From positions 1 through 64,000 of the forward strand of contig JARYLV010000002.1 of NCBI GenBank assembly GCA_029907465.1: a DNA stretch of 64,000 nucleotides, read 5' to 3'. Shown one piece after another: positions 54,406 through 63,337 of the stretch. How positions within the stretch are numbered: the first letter of the stretch is position 1; each line of letters starts with the position of its first letter. This stretch comes from Methanomassiliicoccales archaeon (GTDB lineage Archaea > Thermoplasmatota > Thermoplasmata > Methanomassiliicoccales > JACIVX01). Position numbers and translations under genes: made by a program. The notes under the pieces are model-generated. The model was not told the origin of the DNA. It searched no databases and saw only the letters and a list, made by a program, of their open reading frames with translations.

Positions 54406-55224
54406 TTAAGAATCATTCTGATGGTCAAGCATGATTGACAGACTGCCGCTCCTGAACCCCTCTAAGTCCATGGTTACATAAATGAATCCAAGTTCTTTGA
54501 AGCTACTTACGATTTCGCGCCTTTTTTTGACGATGATCTCCATATCATCTGGCTCAACTTCTATACGTGCCGTAACACCATGATGTCTCACGCGCACTTG
54601 TCTGACCCCCATATCTCTGATAACAGTTTCCGCCTTATCGATCATAACAAGTTTCTCAAGAGTGATTCTCTCATTGAATGGGATTCTTGTCGCAAGGCAG
54701 GCATTTGACGGTTTGTAAGCAGTTGGCAATCCCATTTCTCGTGAGATCGCCCTTATTTCCTCTTTAGTCAATCCGACCTCCGCTAGTGGGCTCCTGACCC
54801 CCATTTCTCTCGCTGCCTTTGAACCCCATTTGTGAGATATAATATCATCCGCATTGTTCCCATCGATGACTGTTGAAAACCCCTCTTCCTGGGCTATTGT
54901 TTTAATTGCTTGGAAAAGATGGCGCTTGCAGATATAGCAGCGATCAACGGGGTTTGAAACATATTGAGGGTCATTGAGTGGATCAACATTAATTTGTTTC
55001 AATCTCACTCCAAATTTCTCAGCTATTTCGACGACATTGTTTCTATCGCAAGAAGGTGTGATTGATGAGATATTCGTGATTGCTAATACACGATCTCCTA
55101 GCACCTCCGATGCCACTCTCAAGAGGAGTGTGCTATCGACTCCACCTGAGAAAGCGATCACGACACTCCCAGTTTTCTCTAGCGTTTCTCTTAACAATCT
55201 CAGTTTTGTTTCTTTGGTTGTCAC
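54406..55224 (-). CDS. larE: LarE-type sacrificial sulfur transferase
   Basis: A ~272-residue PP-loop ATP pyrophosphatase. Seen: FSGGVDSTLLLRVASE; ITPSCDRNNVVEIAEKFGV; the characteristic NPVDRCYICKRHLF; GNNADDIISHKWGSKAAREMGVRSPLAEVGLTKEEIR; NACLATRIPFNERIT, whose Cys aligns with the sulfur donor of LarE. LarE adds sulfur to the nickel-pincer nucleotide precursor. The frame is open to 55320, but family length and the start of homology fit the GTG at 55224. Divergent to larB. Confidence 0.92.
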   Translation of the reverse strand: MTTKETKLRLLRETLEKTGSVVIAFSGGVDSTLLLRVASEVLGDRVLAITNISSITPSCDRNNVVEIAEKFGVRLKQINVDPLNDPQYVSNPVDRCYICKRHLFQAIKTIAQEEGFSTVIDGNNADDIISHKWGSKAAREMGVRSPLAEVGLTKEEIRAISREMGLPTAYKPSNACLATRIPFNERITLEKLVMIDKAETVIRDMGVRQVRVRHHGVTARIEVEPDDMEIIVKKRREIVSSFKELGFIYVTMDLEGFRSGSLSIMLDHQNDS

Positions 55225-55367
55225 GATAGTTAAAAAACATTTATCAGATATGAACGTTGTTGATTTTTCAACCATCAGATTGAATTTGAAGTGATTTTCT
55301 TCGAATTGATTAACGCGCACATTTTCGATGGAAAAGAAAAAGAAGACGATCGTGGATATGACAACCG

Positions 55368-56144
55368 ATGAAGATTCGTGAAATACTGGCGCAGTTCAAA
55401 AGAGGGGAAATCAGTATTGAAGAAGCAGAGAGACTACTCAAATTGGACTTCCTTGAGCGGATTGGCGACCACACGATCTTTGATCATGCCCGGGAAGCCC
55501 GTCGTGGCATTCCAGAGATCATACTGGGAGAGAGTAAACCTCCAGAGGTCGTGTCGGAGATTATCCGCAGGGTGATGGAAAACAAGAGAGTCATCATCGT
55601 CTCGAGGGCATCAAGGGCCCATTTTGACGCGGTCGTCGATGCAATAGGATCTGAGGGAGTCAAATGGGAAGAAAGAGCAAAAATGATCGTTATAAATCGG
55701 GGTGGGCTCTGCGCAAAAGAGGGGATAATAGGAATACTTGCGGCAGGAACTTCCGACATTTCTGTAGCTGAGGAAGCTCGGATCGTGGCTGAGACGATGG
55801 GATGCCATGTCATGACTGCATACGATGTAGGGATCGCCGCTTTTCATCGTTTTGTTGATCCATTGGAGTCGATGCTAAAAAATGGCTGTGATGCAATTGT
55901 TGTCGTCGCGGGAATGGAAGGGGCGCTCGCTTCCGTTGTTTCAAGTCTCAGCGATGTACCTGTTATTGGCGTTCCTACATCAGTGGGTTATGGGATGGGA
56001 GGAAAAGGCGAGGCCGCACTCCTTTCAATGCTTCAGACGTGTTCTCCTGGGCTTGTAGTTGTCAATATCGATAACGGAGTTGGAGCCGGTGCGACTGCCG
56101 CCCTGATTAGCCTCCGCTCAAGACGTTCGAAGAGCGAAAAGTGA
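55368..56144 (+). CDS. larB: LarB-type carboxylase/hydrolase (pyridinium biscarboxylate synthase)
   Basis: A 258-residue LarB (PurE-related) protein that carboxylates and hydrolyses nicotinic acid adenine dinucleotide, the first step of nickel-pincer nucleotide synthesis. Seen: GRE-like LDFLERIGDHTIFDHAREARRGIPEIILGE, SRASRAHFDAVV, GILAAGTSDISVAEEAR, VVAGMEGALASVVSSLSDVPVIGVPTSVGYG and NIDNGVGAGATAAL. The nearest relative of its C-terminal half is PurE. LarC, which inserts nickel, and LarA, the racemase that uses the cofactor, are not in the window. Confidence 0.93.
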   Translation: MKIREILAQFKRGEISIEEAERLLKLDFLERIGDHTIFDHAREARRGIPEIILGESKPPEVVSEIIRRVMENKRVIIVSRASRAHFDAVVDAIGSEGVKWEERAKMIVINRGGLCAKEGIIGILAAGTSDISVAEEARIVAETMGCHVMTAYDVGIAAFHRFVDPLESMLKNGCDAIVVVAGMEGALASVVSSLSDVPVIGVPTSVGYGMGGKGEAALLSMLQTCSPGLVVVNIDNGVGAGATAALISLRSRRSKSEK

Positions 56145-56234: not shown

Positions 56235-57209
56235 ATGTTTAGCAGGTCCTTGGGAAAGGAGGAACTCATAATTCGGGAGATGAAATTGCAGGACATCGAA
56301 AAAGCTCGAGAAATGGCACAGAAAGCATGGTCCGACATGGCGACTCGAGATGCGGGACGAAGGATCAGCTATCCAATGAGATCCAAGAAGATTATCGAAG
56401 CTTACATCTGGAAAGAACCGAAAGGTTGCTTTGTTGCTGAGAAATGCGAATCAATCGTTGGTGCAGCTTATTCACATGTGTGGGGTAAATTAGGATGGAT
56501 AGGTCCGATTGAAGTTTTGCCGGAATTTCAAAATCGTGGGATAGGTCGCGCATTGCTCTCGGAATGTGAGGACTTTTTGAGAAGATCTGGCTGTGAGACT
56601 ATTGGCATTGAAACGATGTCGCATCTTCCGAAAAATCTACATTTCTATTTGTCCAACGGATACCGTCCAGATGCCTTGACCGTAATCGCTGAAAAACCGC
56701 TTACTCAAAAGCAACAGGTGAGACTGCAGGAATACAATGAGATTGAAGAGATTAAACATGACCCAATAAGTATTAGAGAAGCGGTCAGAAGGATCGGATC
56801 GAAGATTTCTGATGGTCTCGACCCATTCAAAGACATCGAAATGATCGTGGAAAGGAAGTTAGGCTCGGTCTTTGTATGGCGTATGAAACGACAGATCATA
56901 GGCTTCGGTTTGCTCCACACCTACTTGAAAGATGAAGAGGGGGATTACGCATCCATAAGAGTTATTCTTGTTGATCCTGACTATATTGGATCCGAAATTG
57001 GCTTCGACGCGCTTGTTAGAACTTGTGAAAATGAATCACTCATGAATGGGAAAAAGAGGATTTTTGCAAGATTTCCCGTAATCAATGACCTAATTTATAA
57101 GAAAATGGCAATGAACGGTTATGTAATCAAAGGGGCGAATATCAGGATGTTCAAGGGCTCCTCCTTCAATCAGAGAGGCGATTATACCATACTTTCCCTA
57201 GCTGGCTGA
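56235..57209 (+). CDS. Double GNAT acetyltransferase
   Basis: A 324-residue protein with two GNAT domains. The first (10-150) has the acetyl-CoA loop VLPEFQNRGIGRALLSECEDFL. The second (about 165-324) has VFVWRMKRQIIGFGLLH and VDPDYIGSEIGFDALVRTC but a degenerate loop with no R-x2-G-x-G/A, so it may be structural. N-terminal VAEKCESIVGAAYSHVWGK is typical. The substrate is unknown. It starts with ATG after a purine-rich leader and lies 77 bases before nre. Confidence 0.85.
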   Translation: MFSRSLGKEELIIREMKLQDIEKAREMAQKAWSDMATRDAGRRISYPMRSKKIIEAYIWKEPKGCFVAEKCESIVGAAYSHVWGKLGWIGPIEVLPEFQNRGIGRALLSECEDFLRRSGCETIGIETMSHLPKNLHFYLSNGYRPDALTVIAEKPLTQKQQVRLQEYNEIEEIKHDPISIREAVRRIGSKISDGLDPFKDIEMIVERKLGSVFVWRMKRQIIGFGLLHTYLKDEEGDYASIRVILVDPDYIGSEIGFDALVRTCENESLMNGKKRIFARFPVINDLIYKKMAMNGYVIKGANIRMFKGSSFNQRGDYTILSLAG

Positions 57210-57286
57210 GTTAATAATTGAGCGATTTTCGCAGACCTCGTCGCAAGAATAAAATAAGCGGGACGTGAGTTAAATAGCGAGTATTC

Positions 57287-58576
57287 ATGATTGGGCAGAG
57301 AGAAGCCATGATAAATATGTTTAAAGATCCAGCCTTTTTCATCGGGAAAAAAACATCTGGATCTCTCTGTGTTTTGTGTAAGGGATCAAAATTGCTCTGT
57401 GGGAAAGACCGATGTCCATTAATGCTCAAATTCTACTCCCACGCAAAGACTAAGAGACTCATCGACGGCATCGATCTATTTGGCGATTCACCACCAGGGG
57501 TATTTGTTGGTCGGTATGGATATCCAAAGGTAGACATCGGTCCCCTCGTGCCTCCGTTATCTGGTGATACATCGATTATGGATACTCCTGAGTTATGGGT
57601 TGGAAAAACGATTGAAGAGATCGTAGATTTCAGGTTTTCCCTGGTCAGAGGGAAATACAAGATTGATGTCGCAGATATCAGCTCGCCATCAAGAATCGTT
57701 GATCAAACGAGGGAGCTCGCTCTTGCGATCAATCCAATCGGTGTGGAAGCAAAATTCGAAAAACCACCATCAGGTAGAATTGTGCTTGATGATGAGGTTC
57801 AGCCATTCGGACCATCTGGAAAACTAAAAAAACTCAGCATTGAATATCCAAAGTTCGATCAAAAGATCGAAAAGGCATACTATGATACAGATCTGCGCGC
57901 GGTAGAAGCGGTAGTTGGTCTCTATCAACAGGGAGTTATGATATCCCGGATACAGAAGGCATTCAGTGTTGGGGCTTTTGGAATCGAAAGGAACAGAAGG
58001 TTTGTTCCAACCCGATGGAGCATCACTGCCGTAGATGACTTAATAGGGAAAGCTCTCCTCAAAAAAACAAAAACCTATCCATTGATTGACGAATTCCGAA
58101 TTTATGACTGGGAACAACTCGACAACCGCTGGATCGTGCTGTTACTTCCTACTACGTGGAGATATGAGTTAATTGAAGCATGGTATCCTAATACCGCATG
58201 GAATCCATCGGGGAAACAGATTGAGATTATAAGTGACCACGAATTTTACAACGGCAGGAAAGAATATGCACAGATCGGAGGTTGCTATTATGCAGCACGT
58301 CTTGCTGTTAACGAATTACTTGAAAGGGAGAGGAGACAAGCGGGAGCTGTAATTTTCAGGGAAGCACATCCGGGTTACATCATGCCCGTTGGTGTCTGGA
58401 ATGTGAGGGAAAATGTTAGGATGGCATTAAACCAGCGACCGTTTAGATTCAGCAGACTCGAAGATGCCCTTAGATACATTTCTTCGCGAATGGACATTCC
58501 GATTGATGTCTGGATCAAACACAGCGAGATCCTCAGAGACACACTGCATCAGCGGAGAATTGAAGAGTATGTATGA
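57287..58576 (+). CDS. nre: Archaeal Nre-family DNA repair protein
   Basis: A 429-residue Nre protein (DUF650/DUF651). Seen: an N-terminal zinc finger CVLCKGSKLLCGKDRC (Cys28, 31, 38, 43); GVFVGRYGYPKVDIGPLVPP; TPELWVGKTIEEIVDFRFSLVRG; and LLLPTTWRYELIEAWYPNTAWNP. Haloarchaeal NreA/NreB help repair mitomycin-type damage and NreA binds PCNA by a C-terminal PIP motif. The tail here ends in RRIEEYV with no clear PIP. The 3' end overlaps the radical SAM gene by eight bases, so the two are coupled. Confidence 0.9.
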   Translation: MIGQREAMINMFKDPAFFIGKKTSGSLCVLCKGSKLLCGKDRCPLMLKFYSHAKTKRLIDGIDLFGDSPPGVFVGRYGYPKVDIGPLVPPLSGDTSIMDTPELWVGKTIEEIVDFRFSLVRGKYKIDVADISSPSRIVDQTRELALAINPIGVEAKFEKPPSGRIVLDDEVQPFGPSGKLKKLSIEYPKFDQKIEKAYYDTDLRAVEAVVGLYQQGVMISRIQKAFSVGAFGIERNRRFVPTRWSITAVDDLIGKALLKKTKTYPLIDEFRIYDWEQLDNRWIVLLLPTTWRYELIEAWYPNTAWNPSGKQIEIISDHEFYNGRKEYAQIGGCYYAARLAVNELLERERRQAGAVIFREAHPGYIMPVGVWNVRENVRMALNQRPFRFSRLEDALRYISSRMDIPIDVWIKHSEILRDTLHQRRIEEYV

Positions 58577-59417
58577 CCTTTATTCGTTCGAAAATGGAAA
58601 TCCAATTCGTAGTGCCAATTTCCCTACTATAAGAGAAAAGATATGCAAATCATCTCTTGTTCCTTCAAGACTCCCTGGTTTAAATTATGCGCTGAATCCA
58701 TACAGAGGATGTGAGCACGGATGCCTCTACTGTTACGGACCATCTGTGCTCAAACTCAAAAGAGGATCATGGGCGACTGAAATTGAGGTCAAGATCAATT
58801 TGCCGGATATTTTAAGACGAGAGATCGTCAATAAGACAGGTATCGTTGGAATTGGAACTGTAACTGATCCATATCAGCCAATTGAACGCAATTACTGCAT
58901 CACAAGAAAAAGTCTCGAGATCATTTCACGTTCGGAATTAAAAGCGAGCATACTGACCAAATCTGACCTTATATTAAGGGATGCGGATTTAATTTCTAGA
59001 ATGTGCGGTGCTGAGGCGGGGATCACAATTACGACAATCGATGATGATTTTGCAAGTCAGTTCGAACCGCATGCCCCTCCACCGTCCAAAAGAATTGAGA
59101 CTTTAAAGAAGCTATCGGAATTAGAGATCGACACCTATGCCATGATCGGACCGATACTACCTATTGTCACAGAAGATCGCCTAGGGGCCCTCATCTCGGA
59201 GATTGCGTCGACAGGCACTAAACGCGTTATGGTTGACAAGTTGCGTTTGAGACCGGATATGATGGAAACACTTATTTCATGTGATTTGATGGAGGATTCT
59301 CATTTTAAAGAGGAGTTCCTTAATAAAGCACGTTCAAATTCCTTCTATCAGAGAATTCAACGGGAAATTTTCGGGCTTTGCAAGAAAAATCAAATCCACT
59401 TTGAAAGGGCATTCTAG
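58569..59417 (+). CDS. Spore-photolyase-like radical SAM protein
   Basis: A ~282-residue radical SAM protein of the SplB/Rv2578c group. The cluster motif is CEHGCLYCYGP near 55, after LNYALNPYRG. Other features: VGIGTVTDPYQPIERNYCITRKSLEI, ILTKSDLILRD and AGITITTIDDDFASQFEPHAPPPSKRIETLKKL. True spore photolyases repair the spore thymine dimer, but archaeal relatives are uncharacterised and may act on other lesions. The chosen ATG at 58569 lies within the last codons of nre. The upstream open frame (to 58464) is only the overlap with nre. Confidence 0.85.
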   Translation: MYDLYSFENGNPIRSANFPTIREKICKSSLVPSRLPGLNYALNPYRGCEHGCLYCYGPSVLKLKRGSWATEIEVKINLPDILRREIVNKTGIVGIGTVTDPYQPIERNYCITRKSLEIISRSELKASILTKSDLILRDADLISRMCGAEAGITITTIDDDFASQFEPHAPPPSKRIETLKKLSELEIDTYAMIGPILPIVTEDRLGALISEIASTGTKRVMVDKLRLRPDMMETLISCDLMEDSHFKEEFLNKARSNSFYQRIQREIFGLCKKNQIHFERAF

Positions 59418-62911: not shown

Positions 62912-63337
62912 TTAATTTTCTATCTCTATTCTGCCCCTCCTCCCCCGCATAATATCGATTCCAAAATCTGAGATCTTCACGAAACAATTGATCAACTTTA
63001 ATTTTGTGCCAACCTTTATTCCAATTCTTTCCGGCAGGTCGACATCATCATCCCAGAGCACAAGACGAGCTCCACCTGTCCCGTCTTCAATCTCTATATT
63101 CCTCACTCTGCCATTTGATCCATCTGATTTCTTGAATTCTCTTATGCCGAAGATTCTACTGACTATTGCTTCAACCGATGCTTCTTCGCGGTCTCTCAGG
63201 TCGGACACACATTTCATATTCATTATTAGTAGACCTTCTTCATCCAAAATCAATCTTCTGAGTGCCTCGTCGTCTAATAGGTTTCCGAATTCCTGCCTCA
63301 ATTCTGCAATCCTGGCCTTGAGCTCTTCCTCGTTCAA
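62912..63337 (-). CDS. Single OB-fold, RPA-like nucleic-acid binding protein
   Basis: A 141-residue protein with an N-terminal helix pair (EELKARIAELRQEFGNLLDDEALRRLIL) and one OB fold: MKCVSDLRDREEASVEAIVSRIFGIREFKKSDGSNGRVRNIEIEDGTGGARLVLWDDDVDLPERIGIKVGTKLKLINCFVK in broken segments, typical of RPA-type single-stranded DNA binding (VRNIEIEDGTGGARLVLWDD). It may be a single-strand binding or replication accessory protein. The C terminus is basic (MRGRRGRIEI). It stands alone before the recombinase. Confidence 0.82.
   Translation of the reverse strand: MNEEELKARIAELRQEFGNLLDDEALRRLILDEEGLLIMNMKCVSDLRDREEASVEAIVSRIFGIREFKKSDGSNGRVRNIEIEDGTGGARLVLWDDDVDLPERIGIKVGTKLKLINCFVKISDFGIDIMRGRRGRIEIEN

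Follow-up and report, generated by a model that had tools for sequence, protein, structure and literature searches.

We analysed a stretch of 64,000 nucleotides from a Methanomassiliicoccales archaeon (contig JARYLV010000002.1, positions 1 to 64,000; hereafter the window), in which a gene of the Nre family, nre, is followed by a gene for a radical SAM (S-adenosylmethionine, AdoMet) protein resembling spore photoproduct lyase (SPL). The two genes form a pair that recurs across the archaeal phylum Thermoplasmatota, where it is linked to one of two clades of Nre proteins. Our favoured reading, to which we assign a probability of about 0.5, is that an Nre linked to the sliding clamp PCNA works with a radical SAM enzyme that acts on a DNA lesion.

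Both the nre/radical SAM arrangement and the idea of crosslink repair have been in print since 2016 (PMC4929162). That review, in the parts available to us, places nreB beside splB-like genes in archaea, sometimes overlapping them, and speculates on crosslink repair; the NreB/SplB-like pair is attributed to Giroux and MacNeill 2016 (via PMC4929162). Two questions are raised in the same source: is the pair a relict of evolution or a partnership that still works, and what role do the archaeal SplB-like proteins play? What is added here is a phylum-wide count, the clade specificity of the linkage, a cysteine missing from the enzyme and the insertion of a glycosylase gene into the pair. A functional study of the Nre/radical SAM pair was not found in the literature searched, which includes only a minority of subscription papers. 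The adjacency to an SplB-like radical SAM gene is common to the published pair and ours; the window Nre, however, is the only Nre found in its genome and has a C-terminus resembling a PCNA-interacting-protein (PIP) box.

The window belongs to a metagenome-assembled genome of 1.72 Mb that is 96% complete, and a search of this genome found a single Nre and a single protein of the SPL-like radical SAM kind. The Nre matched the Pfam domains Nre_N (PF04894; E 8.8e-102, 341 bits against a cut-off of 25) and Nre_C (PF04895; E 8.2e-42, 142 bits against a cut-off of 27). An earlier reading of the same DNA, made from the sequence alone, had reported that nre overlaps an SPL-type radical SAM gene by eight bases, and this is indeed how the two open reading frames (ORFs) lie (see the table below). 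Judging from its position, a GGAG ahead of the radical SAM start could couple the translation of the two genes.

We surveyed 292 Thermoplasmatota genomes, with Nre_C as the marker of Nre and profile A1 as the marker of the radical SAM protein. The former was present in 206 genomes and the latter in 169; 161 genomes had both, 45 had Nre alone, eight had the radical SAM protein alone and 78 had neither (Fisher p 3e-29, a value that ignores kinship). Adjacency was assessed in 130 genomes, those for which the matches listed include both genes. In 116 of these the radical SAM gene was directly downstream of nre, that is, on the same strand with less than 200 bp between the matches. The remaining 14, again among the matches listed, comprised eight genomes with the two genes on the same contig but farther apart (seven of them within 2 kb and on the same strand) and six with the genes on different contigs. 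Overlaps or very short gaps between the two genes were frequent in other loci; gene starts had been chosen nearest to -8, which biases overlap counts that way, and the counts were hence left unused. Since the arrangement recurs across the phylum, the pairing is not a product of chance, and the sequence-only reading, which was to be abandoned if the pair occurred in this genome only, stands on this point. Natural fusions of Nre and the radical SAM protein were also considered, and were rejected: in G017, G107 and G251, which have long open frames around nre, the two genes proved to be separate frames.

The surroundings of the pair change from lineage to lineage. The window has the gene order tldD, pmbA, larE (on the opposite strand), larB, GNAT, nre, radical SAM, thermosome. 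In 20 genomes from outside the window's order (about 10 kb each), none of tldD, pmbA, larE, larB, the GNAT gene, the thermosome gene, the gene of a 448-aa protein and a gene resembling replication factor A (RPA) was found near the pair. The neighbours there were different, and included genes for FG-GAP repeats, ribosomal S3Ae, Toprim, OsmC, phosphate and amino-acid transporters, an FAD oxidase and others (identities from the 20 of 170 listed flanking ORFs that were scanned).

Two Nre trees were built; the first has 97 proteins, and the second, careful tree leaves out the longest branches and has 54. In both of them Nre splits into two clades, and the window Nre belongs to clade II. The split between clade II and the group of clade I plus Halomarina NreA had a support of 100/98 in the careful tree, with the NreA side judged by this one haloarchaeal reference on its long branch. 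The linkage to the radical SAM gene largely followed the same split. In clade II, 57 of 79 rows were adjacent to it (two of them repeats of a gene already counted), seven were near (within 2 kb) and 15 were unlinked (three of these, L024, L032 and L056, run into the edge of a contig), so 64 of 79 were linked; in clade I the number was 0 of 17. Four genomes (G034, G068, G198 and G230) each show one copy per clade, and in all four the radical SAM gene stood beside the clade II copy, although the G230 copy, a long branch, is absent from the careful tree. In G019, one of two clade II copies was linked. The rule is nevertheless not a strict one: G227 and G281 show only a clade I copy but do have radical SAM matches, none of them seen next to that copy, while family f5 has clade II Nre (L070, L072) without a radical SAM gene.

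Seven Nre rows had the radical SAM gene farther off yet within 2 kb. In L091 and L094, from one family, and in L097, from another, a uracil-DNA glycosylase gene (PF03167, 120-134 bits) was inserted between nre and the radical SAM gene. Because such a gene is inserted in three genomes, we take a role in DNA repair as the best reading of the pair. At L093 (3166-5564) the inserted genes were a macrodomain gene and a second ORF, the latter SIR2-like by eye with no Pfam hit; a macrodomain gene was also observed just upstream of nre in L098 (488-1027). A sodium symporter gene separated the two partners in L095, and L096 had no same-strand ORF of 50 aa or more between them. In L086 (genome G201), nre is present twice in tandem, with identities of 53% and 63% to the window nre, so that the second copy lies between the first and the radical SAM gene that follows.

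The predicted model of the radical SAM protein (pLDDT 91.4) had SPL as its nearest solved fold (Foldseek E 2e-10). VIA-align of this model with SPL (4k9r) gave Z 20.6 with rmsd 3.3 over 252 residues, with the next family at Z 17.3. Comparing its profile with that of six SPL-family proteins gave E 3.5e-12, and a search of solved structures with the profile of the family found SPL at 0.0025; with the single sequence no solved relative was detected at E of 1 or less. The window protein and Bacillus subtilis SplB (PDB 4fhc, 4k9r) share the fold, the CxxxCxxC motif and tyrosines at the Y97 and Y99 positions. On the other hand, the window enzyme has 282 aa, compared to about 340 in SPL, and is 15-17% identical. 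The last fifth of its model is mostly helical, and the region of SPL that matches it is where we presume the DNA-contacting hairpin to be. The protein fell under the cut-off of all four NCBIfam models that it matched. The best of these profiles were those of the bacterial families PA0069, Rv2578c and rSAM_mob_pairB, with 154.4, 127.2 and 110.2 bits, yet the curated cut-offs (360, 430 and 410, respectively) are far higher.

The hydrogen donor to the substrate radical is C141 in B. subtilis SPL, with Y99 and Y97 relaying the radical, and C74 in Clostridium acetobutylicum SPL (both from the available part of PMC5368176). We counted the corresponding residues in an alignment of 39 rows. Residues C48, C52, Y54 and C55 were present in 39 of 39 rows and Y56 in 36, with F in the other three, and both relay tyrosine positions are thus kept. 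The position of C141 corresponds to T97, because two anchors, an invariant Asp and Lys, have the same spacing of 31 residues in SPL (D144, K175) and here (D100, K131); the motif is also CYTDP in four of six SPL-family rows versus T(V/S)TDP here. The residue at this position was Thr in 37 rows, V in one, S in one and Cys in none; the placement was made by sequence, and hhalign gaps the region differently, with C141 unpaired opposite a gap after T112. The C74 equivalent, derived from an S76C mutant in a PDB title and the alignment, is R34, with Cys in 0 of 39 rows. Cysteines outside the cluster motif are found in columns 26 (31/39), 115 (34/39, Ser in the window) and 271 (25/39), none of them invariant, and one of these might, as far as the alignment goes, still be the hydrogen donor. 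One of the six SPL-family proteins is also without the C141 cysteine; therefore, its absence is no proof against SPL. Still, since a conserved hydrogen-donor cysteine is missing, the enzyme is unlikely to be a spore photoproduct lyase, its chemistry probably differs from that of SPL, and the lesion is probably not the spore photoproduct.

Of the 79 clade II rows, 73 carry the N-terminal four-cysteine pattern (Cys4) of Nre, as do 15 of the 17 from clade I; some of the rows without it are truncated proteins. Within their last 32 residues, 71 of the 79 clade II rows and 12 of the 17 clade I rows have the C-terminal QxxhxxA motif, while the full QxxhxxAA was found in 14 of 79 and 0 of 17, respectively (definition from the available part of PMC4929162, with h and A taken a little wider here than in the review). 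In the window sequence QRRIEEYV, positions 1, 4 and 7 fit the full motif and position 8 is V. Both clades had in common 49 conserved columns, including R243, W244, E297, Y334, Y335, R358, R374 and E375. The predicted Nre model had pLDDT 79.5 and pTM 0.81. Sequence searches detected no solved relative with the single protein (E<=1) or the profile (E<=5), and neither PDB nor the viral models gave a Foldseek match to the Nre model at E<=0.001. VIA-align matched residues 60-190 to OB-fold-like rows (best Z 6.7, 88 residues, rmsd 3.9) and residues ~242-390 to MutL, YicC and LpxC rows (best Z 5.9, 5.9 and 6.1). These matches are a lead only, since a Z under 8 may reflect a common arrangement.

With respect to the type of Nre, the window protein scored 245.9 bits against the haloarchaeal NreA equivalog NF041387 (curated cut-off 700) and sits apart from Halomarina NreA across the 100/98 split. 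Its gene overlaps an SplB-like gene by 8 bp and, judged by this neighbour, it is probably of the NreB type. The mitomycin phenotype was described for Haloferax NreA, acting with UvrABC and PCNA (PMC4929162; PMC7776575; available parts of both). This protein (HVO_0734 of Haloferax volcanii) and the window Nre are both of the Nre family, and its C-terminal PCNA box has a PIP-like counterpart in the window Nre, with V at position 8; the window Nre also shares core residues with a haloarchaeal NreA. However, the Haloferax protein works with UvrABC, while UvrA and UvrB were not over cut-off in the window genome, and haloarchaeal NreA is described as being without the Cys4 motif (PMC4929162, available part), which the window Nre has. 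Judged by the one haloarchaeal reference, NreA lies on the other side of the clade split, and its mitomycin phenotype transfers only weakly to the window Nre. For the claim that Nre acts in archaeal DNA repair, made in the sequence-only reading, the tested function gives no support here, being that of an NreA from the other clade that acts with UvrABC; a repair role is our best reading of the pair.

No UvrA over cut-off (19 partial matches were below it) and no photolyase were found in the window genome. Strong UvrB matches, with a limit of E 1e-80, were present in 152 of the 292 genomes (147 by the curated cut-off). The 39 genomes examined from the window's order yielded no full UvrB, their best matches being about 1e-10; in family f5 of the same class, UvrB was present in 13 of 13 genomes and the radical SAM protein in one of 13. 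Over all 292 genomes the radical SAM protein and UvrB were anti-correlated (both in 48, radical SAM only in 121, UvrB only in 104, neither in 19). We rejected this as proof of replacement: the relation follows large clades, ignores kinship and comes from Thermoplasmatota alone, and it is therefore a pattern and no test. That Nre and the radical SAM protein make up a PCNA-tethered anaerobic direct-reversal pathway, with chemistry unlike SPL, which does part of the UvrABC work in UvrABC-less lineages, seems to us a long shot.

According to the favoured reading, nre and the radical SAM gene would be an operonic pair. Nre, of the NreB-like clade, would bind PCNA via its C-terminal box, and probably DNA as well. 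The radical SAM protein would be a direct-acting enzyme of the SPL fold, which may interact physically with Nre. Cleavage of AdoMet at the [4Fe-4S] cluster would yield a 5'-deoxyadenosyl radical, and this would act on a modified, dimerised or cross-linked DNA base presented by Nre, possibly reversing the lesion directly. The proposal of a repair module for UV or crosslink damage survives in part: the pair is conserved, the enzyme has an SPL-like fold and repair is the best reading, while a UV product of the SPL type is unlikely with no conserved donor cysteine.

Several observations weigh against this account. The contact with DNA is something that we infer for either protein, the fold matches of Nre are weak (Z 6.7 at best), its PIP box in the window lacks the last aromatic residue, which is V instead, and the enzyme has no conserved Cys at the SPL hydrogen-donor position. 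The linkage is also not obligate. Loci L052 and L053 keep nre with the radical SAM gene not found there, G156 (L069) keeps nre with the radical SAM gene not found in the whole genome, and G145 (L108) keeps the radical SAM gene at the same locus with nre missing. In G001, G080, G140, G162, G253, G256 and G281, the listed radical SAM match was far from nre or on another contig. Finally, a thermosome gene trails the pair in the order of the window and some related lineages, and its retention means that the pair is not the sole conserved link in those lineages. We also observed that, at the four loci with single losses, the surviving partner is still upstream of the thermosome gene.

Most radical SAM families use non-DNA substrates. 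Thus, the radical SAM protein could modify a tRNA, an rRNA, a cofactor or another protein, with the gene order being that of an inherited operon without joint function. The persistence of either gene without the other in some genomes would fit this explanation, as would the papers found on PA0069, Rv2578c and COG1533, none of which gives a function in its title or abstract opening. However, the two genes keep their order in lineages without the other neighbours from the window and with different flanking genes, the linkage goes with one Nre clade of the two, a glycosylase gene entered the pair in two families, and SPL is the nearest fold; we consider a non-DNA target unlikely, though it is the alternative to be taken most seriously.

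It is common for a radical SAM enzyme to modify a neighbouring protein, and this one could instead mature Nre, in which a conserved residue would receive a modification or a crosslink. The confinement of the linkage to one Nre clade, with 17 columns conserved there but not in the other clade, is what one would expect in this case. Such maturation is nonetheless hard to reconcile with a clade II Nre without a detected enzyme (G156) and an enzyme without a detected Nre (G145), and protein- or peptide-modifying enzymes reached Z 17.3 or less, below SPL; we regard it as improbable. Least credible of all is a true SPL repairing UV-induced thymine dimers, in spite of the best fold match, the CxxxCxYCY motif with both relay tyrosines and the photolyase not found in the window genome, since the donor cysteine is missing at the B. 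subtilis and C. acetobutylicum-type positions alike, no NCBIfam cut-off was reached, and the 2016 review, in its available part, was aware of no archaeal spore photoproduct (PMC4929162).

The acetyltransferase gene upstream of nre had been proposed as a possible member of the repair module and described as a double GNAT. The first domain is clear (Acetyltransf_1, E 1.2e-20, 74.4 bits versus a cut-off of 20.7); the C-terminal part alone gave E 0.0017 and 19.1 bits, under the same cut-off, and a second domain is therefore likely and unproven. Genes of this kind are upstream of nre in Methanomassiliicoccales loci, at a distance of up to about 4 kb. In L052 and L053, which have no detected radical SAM gene at the locus, the GNAT gene is directly upstream of nre, and none was found near the pair in the 20 genomes outside the order. 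We rejected it as a component, as it is an order-level neighbour that tracks the order's gene block rather than the radical SAM gene, and it is probably not part of the pair. In the window it is adjoined by divergent genes for LarE and LarB, proteins of the nickel-pincer cofactor (54406-56144). Farther downstream, at 62912-63337, a 141-aa protein resembles part of replication factor A (best NCBIfam score 60.5 bits, far below cut-off), and this RPA-like gene is also near the nre block in several Methanomassiliicoccales loci.

Table. Features of the nre/radical SAM locus in the window and glycosylase genes inserted into the pair at other loci.
Feature	Position	Strand	Remark
nre	57287-58576	+	429 aa; clade II in both trees
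Nre N-terminal Cys4 (C28, C31, C38, C43)	57368-57415	+	kept in at least 90% of alignment A2
PIP-like C-terminus QRRIEEYV	58550-58573	+	fits QxxhxxA
GGAG	58554-58557	+	ahead of the radical SAM start
nre/radical SAM overlap	58569-58576	+	8 bp; radical SAM ATG at 58569 inside the nre end
SPL-like radical SAM gene	58569-59417	+	282 aa; Pfam Radical_SAM 1.1e-9
CxxxCxYCY cluster motif (C48, C52, Y54, C55, Y56)	58710-58736	+	CxxxCxYC is residues 48-55
TVTDPYQ motif (residues 97-103)	58857-58877	+	T97 at the SPL hydrogen-donor position by anchor spacing
GNAT-family gene	56235-57209	+	324 aa, 77 bp upstream of nre; context
Uracil-DNA glycosylase superfamily gene	L091:2335-3042		between nre and radical SAM
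Uracil-DNA glycosylase superfamily gene	L094:2545-3657		between nre and radical SAM
Uracil-DNA glycosylase superfamily gene	L097:1608-2156		between nre and radical SAM; overlaps both by 4 bp

With regard to the choice between a relict and a working partnership, our results argue for the latter, because the radical SAM gene is linked to one Nre clade across the phylum, and the linkage is kept without the other neighbours seen in the window and sometimes with a glycosylase gene. If the substrate were shown to be DNA, the pair would represent a rare case of a direct-reversal enzyme coupled to the sliding clamp.

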